Part shown: piece by piece, positions 2,765 through 61,597 of the stretch
Layout of the letters: each line of letters starts with the position of its first letter
Numbering within the stretch: position 1 is the first letter of the stretch
NCBI RefSeq assembly: GCF_016107285.1
Contig: NZ_RCVQ01000002.1
Coordinates: 1-64,000, forward strand
From: Roseomonas sp. KE0001
Lineage (GTDB): Bacteria; Pseudomonadota; Alphaproteobacteria; Acetobacterales; Acetobacteraceae
Direction: 5' to 3'
Length of the DNA stretch: 64,000 nucleotides
Translations under genes and position numbers: made by a program
The notes under the pieces: generated by a model
Database searches by the model: none
What the model was told of the DNA's origin: nothing
Seen by the model: the letters and a program-made list of their open reading frames with translations, nothing else

Positions 2765-3571
2765 TTAGCGCAGGCCGAGCCAGGCGAGGATCAGCAGGCC
2801 GAGGGCGATGCGGTACCACGCGAAGGGGGTGAAGCCGATGCGGCTGATCACGTTCATCAGCCAGCGGACCACCAGCAGCGCAACGATGAAGGCGGCGATG
2901 AAGCCCACCGCGATCTGCCCGCTGGCCGAGAGGTCCAGCACCGCGCGGTTCCTCCACAGGCTGAAGGTGGTGGCGGCGATCATGGTCGGCACCGCGAGCA
3001 GGAAGCTGAACTCGGCGGCGGTGCGGCGATCCACGCCGACCAGCAGGGCGCTGATGATGGTGGCGCCGGAGCGGCTGGTGCCCGGGATCATCGCCAGCGC
3101 CTGGCCGAAGCCGATTAGCAGCGCGGCCAGCGGCCCGATCTCCGGCACGGAATGGATGCTGGGCGCCGGGCGCAGCCTCTCGATGGCGATGATGACGATG
3201 CCGCCCAGGATCAGCGCCACCGCGACGACGAAGGGCGTGTAGAGCAGGTCCGTCACCGTCCTGTAGAGCGTGGCGCCGAAGACCATGGCGGGCAGGAAGG
3301 CCAGCAGCAGGTTGAGGGCGAAGTAGTATTCGGTGCTGCCCCGCTTCCACATGCCGAAGGCGATGCGCAGCAGCGTCGCGCGGAACAGCCAGATCACCGC
3401 CAGCACGGCGCCGAGCTGGATGCTGATCTCGAAGGTCTTGCCGGGCGGCCCCTGGAAGCCGATGGCCTCGCCGAGAAGGATCAGGTGGCCGGTGGAGGAG
3501 ATGGGGAGGAACTCGGTCAGCCCCTCCACGATCCCCATCATCAGCGCGGAGAGAAGCGAGGCGAAATCCAT
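2765..3571 (-). CDS. uppP: Undecaprenyl-diphosphatase UppP (BacA)
   Basis: Inner-membrane phosphatase of 268 aa that converts undecaprenyl diphosphate to the monophosphate and so recycles the lipid carrier for peptidoglycan and other surface glycans; it also gives bacitracin resistance. Family motifs are clear: EGLTEFLPISSTGHL near the N-terminus and PGTSRSGATI in the second half, with about eight hydrophobic segments. The ATG at 3571 has AGGA upstream and gives the usual family length; a longer frame adds 18 unlikely residues. It appears to be a single-gene unit. Confidence 0.96.
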   Translation of the reverse strand: MDFASLLSALMMGIVEGLTEFLPISSTGHLILLGEAIGFQGPPGKTFEISIQLGAVLAVIWLFRATLLRIAFGMWKRGSTEYYFALNLLLAFLPAMVFGATLYRTVTDLLYTPFVVAVALILGGIVIIAIERLRPAPSIHSVPEIGPLAALLIGFGQALAMIPGTSRSGATIISALLVGVDRRTAAEFSFLLAVPTMIAATTFSLWRNRAVLDLSASGQIAVGFIAAFIVALLVVRWLMNVISRIGFTPFAWYRIALGLLILAWLGLR

Positions 3572-3725
3572 GGCGACATCCTGCTCTGGGATGGCCCGGA
3601 TAGCTCGCACCGCCGGAACTGTCACGCCGCGCGAGACCCCGGCCGCCGCCGCCCGGGATGAAATCCAGGACAGGGGCGGTCAGGATCGCGTCAGCGGCCC
3701 GATCGGGGACCCGACCGGGGGGCGA

Positions 3726-21814: not shown

Positions 21815-23653
21815 TTAGGGGCGCGCCGCGTAATCCGTCAGCCACATGGTGTGGTTGGCCGAGCTGGCCCAGGAATCGAAGTTCCTCACCAGGCGCAGCC
21901 GCGGATGGTCGGCCCAGCTGCCGTCCGCCATCTCCTCCAGGAGCGGCATGGCGAGGCCCAGCGGATCCGCGCGCAGCCCCAGGCGCCGCGTCCAGCCGGT
22001 GTGGTGCCGGGCGAAGTCCAGCATGCCCTCCTCCAGCTCCCGCGCCATCGCCTGGATGCCGTCGGTGGGCGCGCGGCCGGGATCCTCCACCGCCACCACG
22101 CCCCCGGCATCATCCCTGTAGCCGATCACCGGGTCATGCGGCGCCGAGAAGAAGAACTCCGCCGCGACGCGGTTGGCGTGGATGGCCGCCAGCATCCCGG
22201 GCGGCACGCTGTCCGGGCCGACCAGGGACTCCATCGGCATGAGGGCACGGCGCCGGCGGGCATCCTCGCTGTCCGCCAGGCAGAAGTAGTAGCCGGTCAC
22301 ATCCAGCGGCATGAGGCCGCGCAGCGCCGCGACGAAGGCCTCCTGCGTGGTACCGTTCCAGCCGACATCGACCAGCGCGACACGCTGCCCCGGCCGCAGG
22401 CCCAGCTCCAGGAGGTGGCGCAGCAGGCCGCGCCGGTTGCGGCGGGCGATCTTCAGGATCTCCCAGCGCCAGGCCTTGAGCAGGCCGCGCATCGGCTCCG
22501 GCTGGTCGTGCCGGAACCGCGTCTCCGGCCCCAGGCCGAGATCGCGCAGGACGCTGGCGCCCGGCGCCGGCACGTCGATCCGCGCCAGCAGCTCGGCCGG
22601 CGAGAGGCCGTCGGCGCCGGAGAGGAGGAAGGGCAGGTGGCTCTCGAAATTGGCCGGGGTCATGGCCGCCAGGGTGAAGGCGACCCGCGAGCCCAGCAGA
22701 TAGGAGGACGGCGGCAGCTCCTCTGGCCGCACCTGCTCCGCCATCCGCCGCAGGATGTGACCGTCGCGGGAGACGAAAAGGATGTGCTCGATGCCGTCGC
22801 GTCGCGCCGCGCCGGCGATCCAGTCGAGGAAACCGAGCGCGGCGGGCCCGCCCTTCTGGAAGCCCAGCTCCCGGAGGCTGCCGGGAGGCACCTCCTGCTG
22901 GTGGTTGCGGATCAGCGCGCGGGCCAGGGAGGCGGCGGGCGAGATGCCCTTGCACCGCGGCGGCAGCCGGGGCTCGCGGTAGTGGAAGGCGACCAGTCCC
23001 CGCTCCCGCGCCTTGCCGATATCCGAGGCGGCATTGTCGCCGATGTGCAGGATCCGCTCCTTCGGCACGCCGGTCTCGGCGGAGAGCAGGTCGAACAGGG
23101 CGCCGAAGTCGCGCTTTGTGCAGTCGCGGTCGGCGGAGATGAAAAGCGGCACCTCGGGCAGCCCGTGCCGCCGCATCAGGGCGGTGAACCAGGGCGCGCG
23201 CAGGTACATGTCGGAGGTGACGACGACCGGCTTGCCCTGCGCCAGCGCCGCGCGGAACACCGCGATCATCTCCGGATTGGGCAGGGTGATCTCCTGCTCC
23301 AGCACATATTCCGCGTCGCGGATGGCGGCGGCGTCGGGCAGGCCGTCGAAGCAGCGGTAGATGCCGTCGAGGTCGATCTCGCCGCGCTTCTCCTGCTGCA
23401 TGACCCGGAAGGCGCCCGCCTGCGCCGCCCGCCGGCGGGCGCGGAACTCGGCGATGCCCTGGCTCTCGCCCAGGATGTCGAAGGCGTCCTCGGCATCGGC
23501 CAGGGGCCGGATGAAGAGCGTGTCGAAGAAGTCGAAGGAGACCAGCCCAGCGGCCTCGATCAGCGCCGGCAGATCTCGCAGATGCTCCGGCCAGGCGGCG
23601 GGGAGGGGGTCCTGCTGCGCGGGCGGGCGCGCCGCGAGAGGCGCCTCGCTCAT
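21815..23653 (-). CDS. HAD-superfamily protein linked to surface glycan synthesis (COG5610-like)
   Basis: A 612-aa protein with an N-terminal HAD domain: catalytic DFFDT (D41 and D44), TSDMYL near residue 147 and the acidic HIGDNAASDIGKA near 205. The C-terminal ~370 residues are a conserved but uncharacterised region (VSRDGHILRRM, VDVGWNGTTQEAF). Such proteins occur in polysaccharide and glycosyltransferase clusters; the substrate is unknown. Its ATG overlaps the upstream glycosyltransferase stop by four bases (ATGA), so the two products are probably made together. Confidence 0.8.
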   Translation of the reverse strand: MSEAPLAARPPAQQDPLPAAWPEHLRDLPALIEAAGLVSFDFFDTLFIRPLADAEDAFDILGESQGIAEFRARRRAAQAGAFRVMQQEKRGEIDLDGIYRCFDGLPDAAAIRDAEYVLEQEITLPNPEMIAVFRAALAQGKPVVVTSDMYLRAPWFTALMRRHGLPEVPLFISADRDCTKRDFGALFDLLSAETGVPKERILHIGDNAASDIGKARERGLVAFHYREPRLPPRCKGISPAASLARALIRNHQQEVPPGSLRELGFQKGGPAALGFLDWIAGAARRDGIEHILFVSRDGHILRRMAEQVRPEELPPSSYLLGSRVAFTLAAMTPANFESHLPFLLSGADGLSPAELLARIDVPAPGASVLRDLGLGPETRFRHDQPEPMRGLLKAWRWEILKIARRNRRGLLRHLLELGLRPGQRVALVDVGWNGTTQEAFVAALRGLMPLDVTGYYFCLADSEDARRRRALMPMESLVGPDSVPPGMLAAIHANRVAAEFFFSAPHDPVIGYRDDAGGVVAVEDPGRAPTDGIQAMARELEEGMLDFARHHTGWTRRLGLRADPLGLAMPLLEEMADGSWADHPRLRLVRNFDSWASSANHTMWLTDYAARP

Positions 23654-26600
23654 GCCGGCACCGCGAAATGCACGTTCTCGGGATGCAGGTTCGGATTGTG
23701 GAAGGGGTCGTGCATCAGCATGTCCGGATGGGCGGCATAGAGGCGGTAGCGGTCGGCATCGAGGCGGGCGCGGCGCTCGGGCACCTCGTGGTCCTGCCCG
23801 CGGCTCAGCGATTCATGGTGCAGCAGGTGCACCGACGGGCAGACCACGTGATAAAGCCCCTGCTTCAGCAGACGGAAGCAGAGATCGACATCGTTGTAGG
23901 AGACGGGAAACGTCTCGTCGAAGCCGCCGGCCGCCTCGAACTTGCCGCGCTCGATCATCATGCAGGCCCCCGTCACGGCGACCCAGTTGTACTCGAGCAG
24001 GTTGCGCATGAAGTTGCCGAAGGCATCGGCGGTCTCGCCATGCAGGGCATGGCAGGGGCCGCAGGCGAGGTTGATCAGGCCGGAATGCTGGACCCGCCGG
24101 GTCTCCGGGTAGAGGAGCTTGGCGCCGACCGCGGCGATGTGGCTTTGCTGCGCGTATCCCGCCATCCGCTCCAGACCGTCCGGCGTCAGCAGCTCGGTGT
24201 CGTCGTTCAGGAACAGCAGGATCTCGCCCCGCGCCGCGCGCGCGCCGATGTTGTTGAGCTCGGAGTAATTGAAGGGCGCGTCGTGCCGGATCACCCGCGT
24301 CCCGTCCCGCTGCTCCAGCGCCTTCAGGATGCCCAGGGTCTCCGCCTGGTCGGAGCCGTTGTCGAGAATGATGAACTCGAAGTTCCGCCAGCTGCTGGTG
24401 GCGTCGATGGAATCGACGCAGCGGCGCAGCACCGCGCCATTGTTGCGGCTCGGGATGATGATCGAGATCAGCGGATTGCCGCGGACGTCGTAGCGGGCGC
24501 GGAAATAGCCGAACATCTGCTCGACGGGCTCCATCCGGCCCGGCGTGCCGCGGCGCTGCATGGCGGCCTCGCGGCAGCGCTGGCCCGCCAGGACGGCATA
24601 GGGCTTGGCGGAGATGTCCGCCGCGACCGAGCTCGGGATGATGCGCCAGTGATAGAGGACCTTGGGGATGTGGGCGATGCGCCGCGCGCGCTCCGTGACC
24701 CGCAGGATCAGGTCCCAGTCCTGGCTGCCGTCGAACTCGGAGTTGAGCGGCCCCACCTCGCGCAGCAGGCTGCGGCGCACGCAGCTCACATGGCAGGTGA
24801 ACATGGTGCTCATCATCGTGTCGGGCGACCAGTCCGGCTTGAAGAAGGGCTGGCAGAAGCGGCCCTGCTCGTCGATCTTGTCCTCGTCGCTGTAGAGGAA
24901 ATCGGGATCGTCCTGCGCGATGCGGAGCGCCAGCTCCCAGAGGCAGTCCTCGGTCAGCTCGTCGTCATGGTCGAGGAAGACGACATAATCGCCCTTGGCC
25001 TGCTCGATCGCCGCGTTGGTGGCGCCGGAGATCCCGCTGTTCTTCTCCAGCAGCATGACGTGGTAGCGCGGATCGTCGAGGCCGCGCAGGAAGTCGCGCG
25101 TCTCCGCCTTCGGGCTGGCGTCATCGGCCAGGATGAGGGTCCAGTCCGGATACCATTGCGCCTTCACGGAGGCGAGCAGGCGCGAGAGCAGGTCGGTCGT
25201 GGTGTTGTAGGTCGGCACCACGATCGAGAAGTGCGGCCGGCGCGGCAGCGCGGCGAGGCGCCGGTCGAGATCCGGCGGCGGGGCCGGCGGCACATAGATA
25301 TAGCCGCCATCCTGCGCCTCCAGGGCATAGCGCCCGTTGCGGTAGGCCATGCGGTCGGGGCCGCTGTCCGGCGGCGCGGGATGGAAGGCCAGGTGGGCGG
25401 GCGCGGCGGCGGCCGGGGCCAGCGCCATGAGCGGCGCGGGCGCGGCCTCCTGCGTGGTTTCCGGGGGGATCTCCAGTGCCGCCGCCGGCGCCACGGGCGT
25501 GGACAGCAGGTTCGCCGCCAGGAGCTCGCGGCGCGCCTTCAGGAAGGCCAGGCGCTGCGGCATGCGGTGCGGCGTCGCCGCCCACCAGGTCGCCTTGGCG
25601 AAGCGCCGCAGCGTCAGACGCAGGGGTTGCGGCATCCGCGTCAGCCCCTCCCGCAGCGGGCCGGTCAGGCGCCACAGGGTGCTCTGCCGCAGCTCCGCGA
25701 GGCTCTGCTCGGATTGCGAGACCTGCGCCATCACGGCGGCGAAGGCCGATTGCAGGTCGGCTTGCATGGCCTCGCGCTCGGCCAGGGCCTGGCGCAGCTC
25801 CTGCAGGGTCCGGTGCTGCTCCTCGGCCTGTTCGCGCAGCTCGGCGGCCTGGCGCTCCAGCCGGGACGCCTCGTCCCGCGCCAGGGCCAGGGCGGCTCCG
25901 CTGTCCTGGTTCGCCGCGCGCAGGGCCTCGATCTCGGCCTGGCTGGCGGCCTGCTGCGCCGAGAGATCAGCGGCCCAGCGCTCGGCCTGGGCCTGCGCCG
26001 TGGCCGTCCAGTGCTCGGCCTGCGCCCGCAGCGCGGCCTGCTCGGCGGCCAGGCTGTCCCGCAGCCGCTCCGTCTCGCCGCGAAGCTGCTCCGCCTCGGC
26101 CTGCTGCGCCGCGAGGCTGCGCCGCAGCTGGTCGGCCTCGGCCTGGGCGGCCAGGCGGTGGGCCTGGTGCGCGGCGGCCTGGGTCGCTTCCGCCGCCTGG
26201 GCCTGGCCGAGCTGCCGGCGCGTGACTTCCAGCTGGAACTGATGGGTGGCGCCATGACCCAGATGGGCATAGGCAGCGCGGATGGCGCTCACCTCCTCCG
26301 GCGAGGCGCCCAGCAGGGCGCGCAGGCCGTCCGGAACCTCGGGGCCGACCGCCAGCACGCCGAGGCCGTGCCCGTGCAGGAACTCGAAGTTCGGATGCTG
26401 CTGCGACAGGTCCTCCCAGAAGCGCCAGACACCGAAGTTGCGCTCGCGCACATTGGTGTCGTGGAACAGCACCACCGCCCGGCGCGACAGTTTCGGCCGC
26501 CAGGACTCGAAGTCCTCCCTCACATCCTCGAAGGTGTGGCGGCCGTCGATATGCAGCAGATCGATGCTGCCATCGGCGAAATAGGGCAGCGCCTGATCGA

Positions 26601-26994
26601 AGCGGCAGCGCAGCAGGCGGGTGAAGCCGGCATAGTGGCGCTCCACCGTGGCGGAAAGCTCGGCATGGACCTCGCCACCATAGAAGCCGGCATGCTCGTC
26701 ACCCTCCCAGGTGTCCACCGCGTAGCAGGCGGTGGGCAGGCCGAGCCGTTGCACCGCCTGGCAGAAGGTCAGGAAGGAGTAGCCGTTGTGCGTGCCGAGC
26801 TCCACCAGGCTGCGCGGTTGCAGCGCCTCGACGAGCCAGAAGGCGAAAGGGGCATGCTCGAGCCAGGCGGATTCCACCACATGCAGGGGCGACCAGAAGG
26901 AGGCGGGGCTGAAGCAGTGCGGCAGGGATGTCGGGGCCGGACCGGCCGGAAGGGCGCCGGGCGCCGGGACGCGTGGCAGAGCAGTGCTCGACAT
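23650..26994 (-). CDS. Methyltransferase / coiled-coil / double GT2 glycosyltransferase fusion
   Basis: A 1114-aa cytoplasmic protein without membrane segments. Order: class I SAM-dependent methyltransferase of the Methyltransf_24 type (about 60-215, LVELGTHNGYSF, LLHIDGRHTFEDV); a long Ala/Gln/Glu coiled coil (about 255-435); a basic linker with STLWRLTGPLREGL, seen in coiled-coil glycosyltransferases of O-antigen clusters; a first GT-A domain (588-790, VVPTYNT and FLDHDDE); a second GT-A domain (842-1065, IIPSRNN and FLNDDTE). Both GT domains keep acidic metal-binding motifs and look active. It likely builds and methylates a surface glycan, the coiled coil acting as spacer or ruler. GAGG precedes the ATG. 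Confidence 0.88.
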   Translation of the reverse strand: MSSTALPRVPAPGALPAGPAPTSLPHCFSPASFWSPLHVVESAWLEHAPFAFWLVEALQPRSLVELGTHNGYSFLTFCQAVQRLGLPTACYAVDTWEGDEHAGFYGGEVHAELSATVERHYAGFTRLLRCRFDQALPYFADGSIDLLHIDGRHTFEDVREDFESWRPKLSRRAVVLFHDTNVRERNFGVWRFWEDLSQQHPNFEFLHGHGLGVLAVGPEVPDGLRALLGASPEEVSAIRAAYAHLGHGATHQFQLEVTRRQLGQAQAAEATQAAAHQAHRLAAQAEADQLRRSLAAQQAEAEQLRGETERLRDSLAAEQAALRAQAEHWTATAQAQAERWAADLSAQQAASQAEIEALRAANQDSGAALALARDEASRLERQAAELREQAEEQHRTLQELRQALAEREAMQADLQSAFAAVMAQVSQSEQSLAELRQSTLWRLTGPLREGLTRMPQPLRLTLRRFAKATWWAATPHRMPQRLAFLKARRELLAANLLSTPVAPAAALEIPPETTQEAAPAPLMALAPAAAAPAHLAFHPAPPDSGPDRMAYRNGRYALEAQDGGYIYVPPAPPPDLDRRLAALPRRPHFSIVVPTYNTTTDLLSRLLASVKAQWYPDWTLILADDASPKAETRDFLRGLDDPRYHVMLLEKNSGISGATNAAIEQAKGDYVVFLDHDDELTEDCLWELALRIAQDDPDFLYSDEDKIDEQGRFCQPFFKPDWSPDTMMSTMFTCHVSCVRRSLLREVGPLNSEFDGSQDWDLILRVTERARRIAHIPKVLYHWRIIPSSVAADISAKPYAVLAGQRCREAAMQRRGTPGRMEPVEQMFGYFRARYDVRGNPLISIIIPSRNNGAVLRRCVDSIDATSSWRNFEFIILDNGSDQAETLGILKALEQRDGTRVIRHDAPFNYSELNNIGARAARGEILLFLNDDTELLTPDGLERMAGYAQQSHIAAVGAKLLYPETRRVQHSGLINLACGPCHALHGETADAFGNFMRNLLEYNWVAVTGACMMIERGKFEAAGGFDETFPVSYNDVDLCFRLLKQGLYHVVCPSVHLLHHESLSRGQDHEVPERRARLDADRYRLYAAHPDMLMHDPFHNPNLHPENVHFAVPA

Positions 26995-27200: not shown

Positions 27201-28466
27201 TCACGGCACCGTCAACAGCCCCACCACCGCCCCCGTCATGCAGCAGGCGAGGTTGGCCGCCACCAGCGAGGGCCAGGCCAGCGCCAGGATGTCGCCCCGC
27301 CGCTCGGGGCACATCCCCGTCATGCCGGCCAGCATGATGCCGAGGGAGGCGAAGTTGCTGAAGCCGCAGAGCGCGTAGGTCAGGATCAGCCGGCTGCGAT
27401 CGTCCAGCCCCAGCCCGCCCGAGGTGGCGAGCTGCAGATAGGCGACGAACTCGTTCAGCACGACCTTGAGCCCGAGCGATCCGGCGACGGTCGCCAGATG
27501 CTCGCCGGGAATGCCCATCAGCCAGGCCAGTGGCCGGAACAGCAGGCCGAACAGCGCCTGCAGCGACCAGCCGGTCAGCGGTTGCAGGATCATGTCGGCC
27601 AGCGTTACCAGCGCGACGAAGACGATCAGGCTGGCCATCACGCCGAGCAGCAGGGAGAGCCCGTCCGCCGTGCCGCGCACCAGGGCCTCCATGGAACTGT
27701 CATAGAGGCGGGGCGCATGGGCCTCCTCCGCGGCGGGCGGCGCGCCGGAGCCGGAATCGGTGCCTGCCCGGGGCGGGCGCATCAACGCGCCGGCCAGAAC
27801 GCTGGCGGGGGCGCTGATCAGGCTCGCCACCAGGAGCTGGCCCGCCGCGTCCGGCACCACCGGCGCGAGCAGCGTCGCGTAGACCACCATCATGTTGCCG
27901 GCGATGGTGGCGAGCCCCGCGGTCATGACGATCATCATCTCGGCGGTGGAGAGCCGCGCCAGCCAGGGGCGGATCAGCAGCGGTGCCTCGACCATGCCGA
28001 CGAAGACATTGGCGGCGACCGAGAAGCCGCAGGCGCCGGACAGGCCGAAGGCGCGGCGCAGCACCGCCGAGATGCCCCGCACCAGCAGGGGCAGGATGCG
28101 CCAGTGGTAGAGCAGGGCGGAGAGCGCGCCCACCACCAGGATCAGCGGCAGGGCCTGGAAGAACAGGATGAAGCTGGCCCCCGGCCGGATCTCGGCATAG
28201 GGCAGGGGGGCGCCGCCGAGATAGCCGAAGACCAGCGCGGTGCCGGCCTGGGTCGCCCGGTTCAGCGCCGTCACCGCCTCGCCCAGCGCGGCGAAGGCGG
28301 CGCGCAGCGGCGGCAGGTGCAGAAGCATCGCCGCCAGCGCCACCTGCAGCGCCAGCCCGGCCAGCAGGATGCGCCAGGGGACCGGGCGGCGGAAGCCGCC
28401 CAGGGCCCAGGCCAGGGCCGCGAGGCCGAGCAGCCCGAGGCCCGACTGCAGTTGCAGCCCGCTCAC
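27201..28466 (-). CDS. Concentrative nucleoside transporter (NupC/CNT family)
   Basis: Inner-membrane symporter of 421 aa that imports nucleosides with H+ or Na+. Hydrophobic segments run through the whole length; CNT signature stretches are GCGFSVAANVFVGMVEAPLLIRP-like (about 145-165) and LNEFVAYLQLA followed by YALCGFSNFASLGI in the C-terminal half. The start is a GTG overlapping the rmuC stop by four bases. In the family the glutamates in EAPL and NEF bind the nucleoside and cation and both are present. Nucleoside preference cannot be read from the sequence. Confidence 0.92.
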   Translation of the reverse strand: MSGLQLQSGLGLLGLAALAWALGGFRRPVPWRILLAGLALQVALAAMLLHLPPLRAAFAALGEAVTALNRATQAGTALVFGYLGGAPLPYAEIRPGASFILFFQALPLILVVGALSALLYHWRILPLLVRGISAVLRRAFGLSGACGFSVAANVFVGMVEAPLLIRPWLARLSTAEMMIVMTAGLATIAGNMMVVYATLLAPVVPDAAGQLLVASLISAPASVLAGALMRPPRAGTDSGSGAPPAAEEAHAPRLYDSSMEALVRGTADGLSLLLGVMASLIVFVALVTLADMILQPLTGWSLQALFGLLFRPLAWLMGIPGEHLATVAGSLGLKVVLNEFVAYLQLATSGGLGLDDRSRLILTYALCGFSNFASLGIMLAGMTGMCPERRGDILALAWPSLVAANLACCMTGAVVGLLTVP

Positions 28467-60684: not shown

Positions 60685-61374
60685 TCAGAACATCAGCCCC
60701 AGCGCGCGAACGCCGAACCAGGCGAGCGCGCCCAGCACGCAGAGGGCGAAGAGGCAGCCCGCCAGGGTCAGCCCCAGCCCCAGCCCGACCACCCGGTTAT
60801 CCTGCTCCACCACGCCCAGCGCCATGACGATGGTGCCGAAGGCGGGCGGCCCGTTGGTGCCGGGGCCGGGCAGGATCAGCATCAGGGCGGCGAGCGCGGT
60901 GGACCAGCCGACCAGCCGGTCTCCCGCCGGGCCGGTGAACCAGCCCGGCCGCGGCCGCACCACCTTCTCGACCAGCCGCAGCCCCTTGCCCGAGGCCGAG
61001 GCGAGGCGCAGCAGATCGGTCCGCTTCACCGTGCGGTCGGCCAGGAAGCGGGGCAGCACCGGCACATGCCGCCCGAGCCCCATCTGCACGCCCAGGATCA
61101 GCATCGGCAGGCCGAAGACGCTGGCCATGCCGGGCAGCAGGCTGGGCAGGCAGAGCAGCAGGATCAGCAGGCCGAAGGCGCGGTCGCCGAAGGCCTCGGC
61201 CATCTCGCCCAGGCTGATGCGCTCGCCCGGGAAGGTCGCCGCCACCTCGGCGATGATGCGCGTGATCGGGGCGTGGACATCCCCCGGCAGGGGGGGCGTG
61301 TGGTCCGGGGCGGGATTCAGCCTGGCCTCGCCCGGTGCGACGTGTGGCGCGGAAGCACCGGCAGTTCCATCCAT
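60685..61374 (-). CDS. ExoD-family membrane protein
   Basis: A 229-aa inner-membrane protein of the ExoD family, first described in exopolysaccharide production and alkaline tolerance of Sinorhizobium. Family signatures are GDRAFGLLILLLCLPSLLP and LPMLILGVQMGLGR, with hydrophobic segments in the second half (about 150-225). Function at the molecular level is unknown. Two consecutive ATGs (61377 and 61374) could start it; the second has better spacing to GAGG. Confidence 0.9.
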   Translation of the reverse strand: MDGTAGASAPHVAPGEARLNPAPDHTPPLPGDVHAPITRIIAEVAATFPGERISLGEMAEAFGDRAFGLLILLLCLPSLLPGMASVFGLPMLILGVQMGLGRHVPVLPRFLADRTVKRTDLLRLASASGKGLRLVEKVVRPRPGWFTGPAGDRLVGWSTALAALMLILPGPGTNGPPAFGTIVMALGVVEQDNRVVGLGLGLTLAGCLFALCVLGALAWFGVRALGLMF

Positions 61375-61597
61375 CATTCAGCCTCGCTGTCACGCACGTG
61401 CCGCCCGCCGCCCATTCCCCACGCGCCGCCCCCGCGCGCCGTCCGGGGCGGCACGGGGCAAGGGAGCAGCTTTCCGGCACCGAGGCAAAGGAAAGCCACG
61501 GGGCGCGGAAGGACCGGGCCCGGAAGCGGCACGGCACGGCCTTCGAGATGAGGACGCGGCGGGCGGGATCAATGGGCGGCGCCGGACCGGCCGCCGC

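Follow-up and report, generated by a model that had tools for sequence, protein, structure and literature searches.

This study revealed a pair of overlapping genes in Roseomonas sp. KE0001 (Acetobacteraceae) that probably encodes a polysaccharide-assembly complex of the Klebsiella pneumoniae O7 kind, comprising two GT2 glycosyltransferase (GT) modules, a ribofuranosyltransferase, a coiled-coil ruler and a methyl stop. The pair lies on the reverse strand of a 64,000-nucleotide stretch of contig NZ_RCVQ01000002.1 (positions 1 to 64,000), hereafter the window; in its list of open reading frames (ORFs), the larger gene (23650-26994) encodes 1114 aa and the smaller (21815-23653) 612 aa. The ORF coordinates bear out the four-base overlap noted in the original prediction, which was made from the letters of the DNA, and this overlap suggests that the two genes are translationally coupled. 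In the proposed mechanism, the two GT2 modules, drawing on nucleotide sugars, and the separate 612-aa ribofuranosyltransferase would alternately elongate a lipid-linked sugar chain at the membrane. The partner would use 5-phosphoribosyl-1-pyrophosphate (PRPP) in two steps, its gPRT domain moving ribose-5-phosphate and its HAD domain taking off the 5-phosphate. The coiled coil of ~206 residues would keep the N-terminal methyltransferase ~30 nm from the polymerase, only chains reaching the methyltransferase would become methyl-capped and stop, and export would proceed through a Wzm/Wzt-type transporter without a carbohydrate-binding module (CBM). If this is true, the pair forms a small system of just two proteins, producing a ribofuranose-containing polymer whose length is fixed and whose stop is a methyl group alone. 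The features are as follows.

21815..23653, minus strand: predicted ribofuranosyltransferase of 612 aa, HAD phosphatase (PRP) plus gPRT (profile, single-sequence and Foldseek matches)
22277..22846, minus strand: gPRT domain, residues ~270-459, with SRDG (295-298), SR (322-323) and VDxGWxGTTQ (428-437) (alignment to Bcs3 and 7shg)
22982..23545, minus strand: HAD phosphatase domain, residues ~37-224, with motifs DFFDT (D41, D44) and GDN..SD (D206, D211) (sub-threshold PF00702, invariant residues)
23650..23653, minus strand: four-base overlap between both genes (ORF coordinates)
23650..26994, minus strand: fused methyltransferase, coiled coil, GT2 and GT2 protein (ORF, Pfam, AlphaFold model)
23725..24483, minus strand: second GT2 (GT-A) module, residues ~838-1090 (Pfam, conserved residues, Foldseek)
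24505..25239, minus strand: first GT2 (GT-A) module, residues ~586-830 (Pfam, conserved motifs)
25591..25644, minus strand: basic and amphipathic segment where the coil ends, residues 451-468, which may contact the membrane (hydrophobic moment)
25684..26301, minus strand: long helix or coiled coil, residues 232-437, interrupted at 362-367 and predicted to act as a ruler of ~30 nm (DSSP of the AlphaFold model)
26335..26913, minus strand: PF13578 methyltransferase domain, predicted to stop the chain, residues ~28-220 (Pfam 7e-27, SAM motif)

The smaller gene product had been described as a COG5610 HAD protein, a label on which our literature search found nothing, and this annotation now gives way to a concrete enzyme prediction. 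Pfam returned only a sub-threshold HAD match (PF00702) for the 612-aa protein. A profile built from this protein, its counterpart in Pseudoroseomonas ludipueritiae and one distant homologue matched the ribofuranosyl transferase of PDB entry 7shg with an E-value of 1e-44 over profile positions 44-567, and Bcs3 with 5e-31, both matches running across the HAD and gPRT domains. The single sequence was also matched to 7shg (4e-8, residues 143-523) and to Bcs3 (1.5e-11, residues 87-458). In a Foldseek search with the 612-aa model, the top 8 of 888 matches were all Bcs3 or 7shg at 3.5e-14 or better, the next being at 1e-6. Given that this model is poor, with a mean predicted local distance difference test (pLDDT) score of 63, residues 459-612 below 50 and a TM value of ~0.28, the assignment as a ribofuranosyltransferase rests on the sequence match.

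Within the HAD domain, D41, D44, D206 and D211, which we take to be the catalytic aspartates of the HAD family, are invariant in alignments of three and of four rows. The PRPP site of Bcs3 is described in the available text of PMC10299916 as an acid pair, D680 and E818, together with S678, R679, S707 and R708; in an alignment read by hand, these residues map to S295, R296, D297, S322, R323 and D429. The position of D297 is occupied by glutamate in the relative at locus L064, and R712 of Bcs3 is not conserved, the corresponding residue being T327. Bipartite ribofuranosyltransferases, as described in the available parts of PMC11127046 and PMC10299916, take PRPP as donor and transfer ribofuranose-5-phosphate, from which the HAD domain then strips the phosphate. 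The 612-aa protein is likely to be a PRPP-dependent bipartite ribofuranosyltransferase (gPRT-PRP) and the third enzyme of the polymerase, and the pair is predicted to make a ribofuranose-containing polymer. With PRPP as donor, the ribose residue would need no dedicated sugar-nucleotide genes. An accessory hydrolase was also considered for the HAD protein and was rejected, because the gPRT part is itself covered by the 7shg and Bcs3 matches; the HAD domain of the original description is present.

With regard to the 1114-aa protein, Pfam identified a Methyltransf_24 domain (7e-27) and two GT2 stretches (5e-51). Motifs were counted in an alignment of 20 rows (A1), 13 of which extend to the GT modules. 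A methyltransferase lacking its S-adenosylmethionine (SAM) pocket had been named as the observation that would speak against the original prediction; the SAM motif ELGTxxGxS (E65-L66-G67-T68..G71..S73) is kept in all 19 rows that have letters there. In the first GT, D675, D677, D678 and Q758-D759 are kept in 13/13 rows, and in the second, D932 and D1035 are each kept in 12/13; as in GT2 enzymes generally, these residues presumably form the metal site or act as putative base. Given this conservation, the SAM pocket and both GT domains look intact, and the methyltransferase and both glycosyltransferases look active. The AlphaFold model of the protein (20 aligned rows, mean pLDDT 78.8) is confident for the methyltransferase and the two GT-A modules, and the top Foldseek matches to the whole model are two-module polymerases, namely chondroitin polymerase K4CP and heparosan synthase. 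The proposed arrangement of a methyltransferase, a coil and two apparently active GT-A domains on one chain is thus borne out by Pfam, model and motifs. The PF13578 match stops at residue 180, the last strands of the methyltransferase are at residue 215 and the long helix begins at residue 232, and no kinase or CBM-like domain separating methyltransferase from coil was found by Pfam or in the AlphaFold model. The pair had been likened to WbdD-type systems. Membership in WbdD was rejected, as the methyltransferase domain matches no WbdD chain at E<=5 in a PDB search and a kinase domain is absent.

The coil had been put at ~180 residues. It is nearer 206, since the AlphaFold model shows helix at residues 232-361 and 368-437. 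At ~1 nm per heptad, a value given in the available text of PMC5082667, where the corresponding WbdD distance is ~20 nm, these 206 residues would span ~30 nm. Beyond the coil, the model has short helices to residue 496 and then a low-confidence linker. The net basic stretch at residues 451-468 shows the top hydrophobic moment among all 1096 windows of 18 residues and is a candidate for a membrane role; WbdD is said, in the available text of PMC11231755, to carry a membrane-associated amphipathic helix.

P. ludipueritiae (L010) encodes a full-length relative of the 1114-aa protein with 56% identity, which allowed the two coils to be compared in a single ortholog pair from one other species, L010, L068 and L101 being the same DNA. 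The coil proper measures 199 aa in the window protein and 198 aa in L010. Identity amounts to 68% in the methyltransferase and 64% in the GTs, and in the coil to 28/198 positions without gaps, or 53 matches with gaps. The gapped coil alignment scores 110 vs 40 +/- 14 for shuffles, so the two coils are still related. Retention of length with loss of sequence is the behaviour described for a spacer in the available text of PMC5082667; the length retained here despite sequence drift is expected of a spacer and fits a ruler.

This last observation bears on a possible but doubtful alternative, in which the methyltransferase would decorate repeat units or a side position, the coil would be a scaffold or oligomerisation rod and length would be set otherwise, for example by transporter stoichiometry. 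A coil length within one residue, with the sequence nearly lost, is spacer-like and not what a binding scaffold would show, though in one ortholog pair, and, like known terminators, the methyltransferase occupies the far end of its coil. Decoration would nevertheless agree with a genome lacking a CBM-bearing Wzt, in which a cap would go unread at export, and with the chain-length-independent methylation by WsaE in vitro (PMC2943079); moreover, the length of Klebsiella O2a is fixed by transporter:synthase stoichiometry, according to the available text of PMC11231755.

The gene neighbourhoods of the family connect the methyltransferase with export. Among 58 loci encoding relatives, a wzm-wzt pair is present in the fetched stretch of 27, and the methyltransferase gene is <=1 kb away, in the same orientation, in 22. 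Wzt measures 440-484 aa in 21 of the latter, which is enough for a C-terminal module. The methyltransferase is linked to a ribofuranosyltransferase in 3/58 loci: adjacent in L010, fused in L063, where a 1277-aa ORF (L063:9923-13756) joins methyltransferase (24-198) and ribofuranosyltransferase (603-1224), and separate in L064, where a methyltransferase-coil gene overlaps the ribofuranosyltransferase gene by four bases and is followed by a GT-like gene, wzm and wzt. In another family member, one ORF (L133:8039-11038) encodes RgpF (rhamnan synthesis protein F) fused with a region resembling ribofuranosyltransferases. Taking together the retained coil length, the basic amphipathic stretch and the location of methyltransferase genes beside wzm-wzt in 22/58 loci, the best reading of the larger protein is a terminator, a coiled-coil ruler and a polymerase on one chain. 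The fusion proposed originally is therefore kept, and its full self-containment is not, since the partner is likely a third polymerase enzyme.

The surroundings of the pair itself are poor in glycan genes. As claimed originally, wzx, wzy and sugar-nucleotide genes are absent from a Pfam scan of the 40 other window ORFs, among which BacA/UppP (2765-3625) and ExoD (60685-61377) are the only ones related to glycans or lipid carriers; elsewhere the genome carries glycan genes of such kinds, rmlD among them, above the cut-off. A Nucleos_tra2 nucleoside transporter gene (27201-28466), also on the minus strand, lies upstream of the pair, its end separated from it by 206 bases. The larger gene is sporadic: of 16 further genomes in the genus, one has a full-length match. 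In P. ludipueritiae, ORF starts and a single Pfam scan revealed no evident glycan genes in the stretch examined. This distribution, together with a pair that stands alone in the window with no polymerase or exporter beside it, would suit a defined short glycan, such as the oligosaccharide of a glycoprotein or glycolipid, made by three glycosyl transfers and one O-methylation. We regard such a product as unlikely, given that the tandem GT-A model best matches the polymerases K4CP and heparosan synthase and that the methyltransferase family occurs in wzm-wzt clusters at 22/58 loci.

The isolated position and the missing CBM exporter would also be compatible with an O-antigen cluster that was acquired, has decayed and is now a functionless remnant. 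In P. ludipueritiae (L010:8512-15072), the GC content at third codon positions (GC3) of the pair is 0.67/0.71 vs 0.75-0.89 around it, and the pair adjoins an integrase-core (rve) gene, which makes lateral acquisition likely in that species. In Roseomonas sp. KE0001, GC3 is native (0.91 and 0.94, the same as in adjoining genes), both frames are open and the active-site motifs listed above are intact. Decay is thus very improbable, and we return to the O7-kind assembly complex.

Several observations weigh against this assembly complex. The heptad signal of the coil is weak, the power of I/L/M/V/F/Y/W at period 3.5 being equalled by 2% of 500 shuffles; at period 3.55 it was equalled by 0/500, nine periods having been tried, and with alanine included the power was non-significant (28% of shuffles at period 3.5). 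The structure prediction that had been suggested as a check returned the long helices, with pLDDT mostly 60-75 and the break at 362-367. The spacing between methyltransferase and GT ranges from 148 to 344 residues among closer homologues with a fused GT; differing spacing in distant homologues is expected if every polymer has its own length. An adjacent ribofuranosyltransferase is known from one other species (L010/L068/L101) and two distant loci, and this methyltransferase was not found in 10 ribofuranosyltransferase regions of 9 other family genomes (80 genomes searched; 2/10 stretches ended at contig ends). Neither an exporter nor a further glycosyltransferase gene was detected near the pair among the 40 scanned ORFs. 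In its own genome, Wzt_C (PF14524) has 0 matches, and the two Wzt-like ATPase matches (E<=1e-25) cover the 465-aa query no further than residue 262 or 271, although every terminated example is said, in the available text of PMC11231755, to bear a CBM on Wzt. Finally, methylation by WsaE in vitro is independent of chain length (PMC2943079).

By these searches, the genome lacks the CBM-bearing Wzt that serves known terminated systems as a checkpoint at export. A Wzt_C search of 12 genomes matched four, which are four of the five non-alphaproteobacterial ones (L012, L013, L016 and L065; not L060), and none of the seven alphaproteobacterial genomes, including those of Roseomonas sp. KE0001, P. ludipueritiae and four further alphaproteobacteria; these seven represent six species, because G013 and the L010 genome share identical DNA here. 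In the alphaproteobacterial cluster L021, a nucleotidyltransferase, a dTDP-4-dehydrorhamnose epimerase and two GTs accompany a Wzm/Wzt-like ATP-binding cassette (ABC) pair, whose ATPase measures 246 aa and is without a C-terminal module. Possible exporters in the genome of the pair are an ABC pair of 250 + 283 aa at ~450 kb of contig C12 (L110) and a Kps-like set at ~168-188 kb of C12 (L109) with Poly_export, ABC2_membrane and Capsule_synth. The latter region (G000:C12:168000-187999) also has two GT4-type genes and lies on the same contig as the pair, ~150 kb off. An ABC2_membrane gene on contig C16 (L096) was dropped as a candidate because its neighbour is a major facilitator superfamily (MFS) transporter.

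Tandem repeats in the coil genes of the family were also identified. A coil of >=60 residues by a simple rule is present in 37/58 methyltransferase ORFs; a tandem array with a period of at least 15 bp occurs in 18 of them, and in 14/18 arrays the period is divisible by 21. Among 888 other open frames of the same loci (>=250 codons, stop to stop), 22 have a coil and two of these 22 carry an array, both divisible by 21. The 21 methyltransferase ORFs below the coil rule, among them L050 with a 21-bp array, were excluded from the count, and a few counted arrays fall outside the coil (e.g. residues 485-498 in L010 and 127-137 in L060). In L064 (1204-1347), the coil is a 42-bp unit repeated 3.4 times with 96% match; a weak 21-bp pair (80% match) is all that the coil of the window protein shows. 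Two Bacteroidota proteins, L040:3909-8561 and L041:3945-8534, share 1529 identical residues, and the L040 coil has 21 additional residues, i.e. three heptads, resembling QNSELQN; as both are metagenome assemblies, collapse of repeats by the assembler is possible. Close pairs with measurable coils of differing length speak against a general heptad rule, L040/L041 being the one pair whose difference is a multiple of seven: L019 and L021 are distinguished by an 18-residue coil duplication, not a heptad multiple, other pairs differ by 1, 8, 12, 15, 19, 23 or 65 residues, and L022/L025 by none. No published account of such repeats was evident from titles or the start of abstracts, which is no proof of absence.

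Heptad-multiple repeats in these coil genes would make the ruler length quickly changing, which is directly testable. They lead to a tentative and rather doubtful extension of the assembly-complex reading: an alphaproteobacterial ruler-polymerase without a cap-reading exporter, in which coil and methyl stop alone would set the length, export would use a CBM-less ABC transporter, and gain or loss of repeats in heptad-unit minisatellites of the wider family could reset glycan length with the coil kept in register. In the assembly complex itself, chain stopping would be separated from stop-checking at export, two steps that are coupled in known systems.

The layout described here is a variant with published precedent, and the fusion of terminator, ruler and polymerase is not new, given O7 ORF6, WsaE and WbbB. 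In K. pneumoniae O7, according to the available text of PMC11231755, ORF6 combines a methyltransferase, a coil and two GT2 modules, ORF7 is the ribofuranosyltransferase, and polymerisation and termination were reconstituted in vitro; homologues are named in Gluconacetobacter diazotrophicus. The present pair resembles O7 in the domain order methyltransferase-coil-GT2-GT2 and in the separate ribofuranosyltransferase gene. Between methyltransferase and coil, ORF6 has a kinase and an immunoglobulin-like CBM and its cap is a methyl-phosphate, whereas here the helix starts ~12-17 residues past the methyltransferase with no kinase or CBM-like domain; the O7 genes sit with wzm-wzt and rml, whereas the present pair stands alone. 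WbbB of Klebsiella O12 is likewise a single polypeptide that carries its terminator and a coiled coil along with the polymerase modules, the terminator being a 3-deoxy-manno-octulosonic acid (Kdo) transferase instead of a methyltransferase (PMC11231755, available text); a literature search for WbbB with Raoultella found nothing.

WsaE of Geobacillus stearothermophilus is alike in domain layout, with a methyltransferase that forms a methyl-only cap and two rhamnosyltransferase modules on one chain (PMC2943079, PMC3898925). Its partner WsaF is a rhamnosyltransferase, in contrast to the ribofuranosyltransferase predicted here, and the wsa cluster includes Wzm/Wzt. A methyl-only stop is known from WsaE (PMC2943079) and, in the available text of PMC3482155, from Escherichia coli O8. 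Like WbdD/WbdA of E. coli O9a, the pair would have its methyl-type terminator on the distal tip of a coiled-coil ruler (PMC3482155 and PMC5082667, available text); WbdD, however, is a methyltransferase with a eukaryote-like kinase, its polymerase WbdA is separate (PMC3482155, in part), and the methyltransferase of the pair has no PDB match to it. The 612-aa protein shares with 7shg (Thermobacillus composti) and with CrpP-CriT of Bcs3 an HAD phosphatase followed by gPRT, with matching motifs, and differs from Bcs3, which additionally has a ribitol-phosphate transferase and an SH3b domain (PMC10299916, available text). Our analysis extends this precedent by a predicted enzyme activity for the partner, the lack of an export checkpoint, the retained coil length and the repeat pattern of the family.

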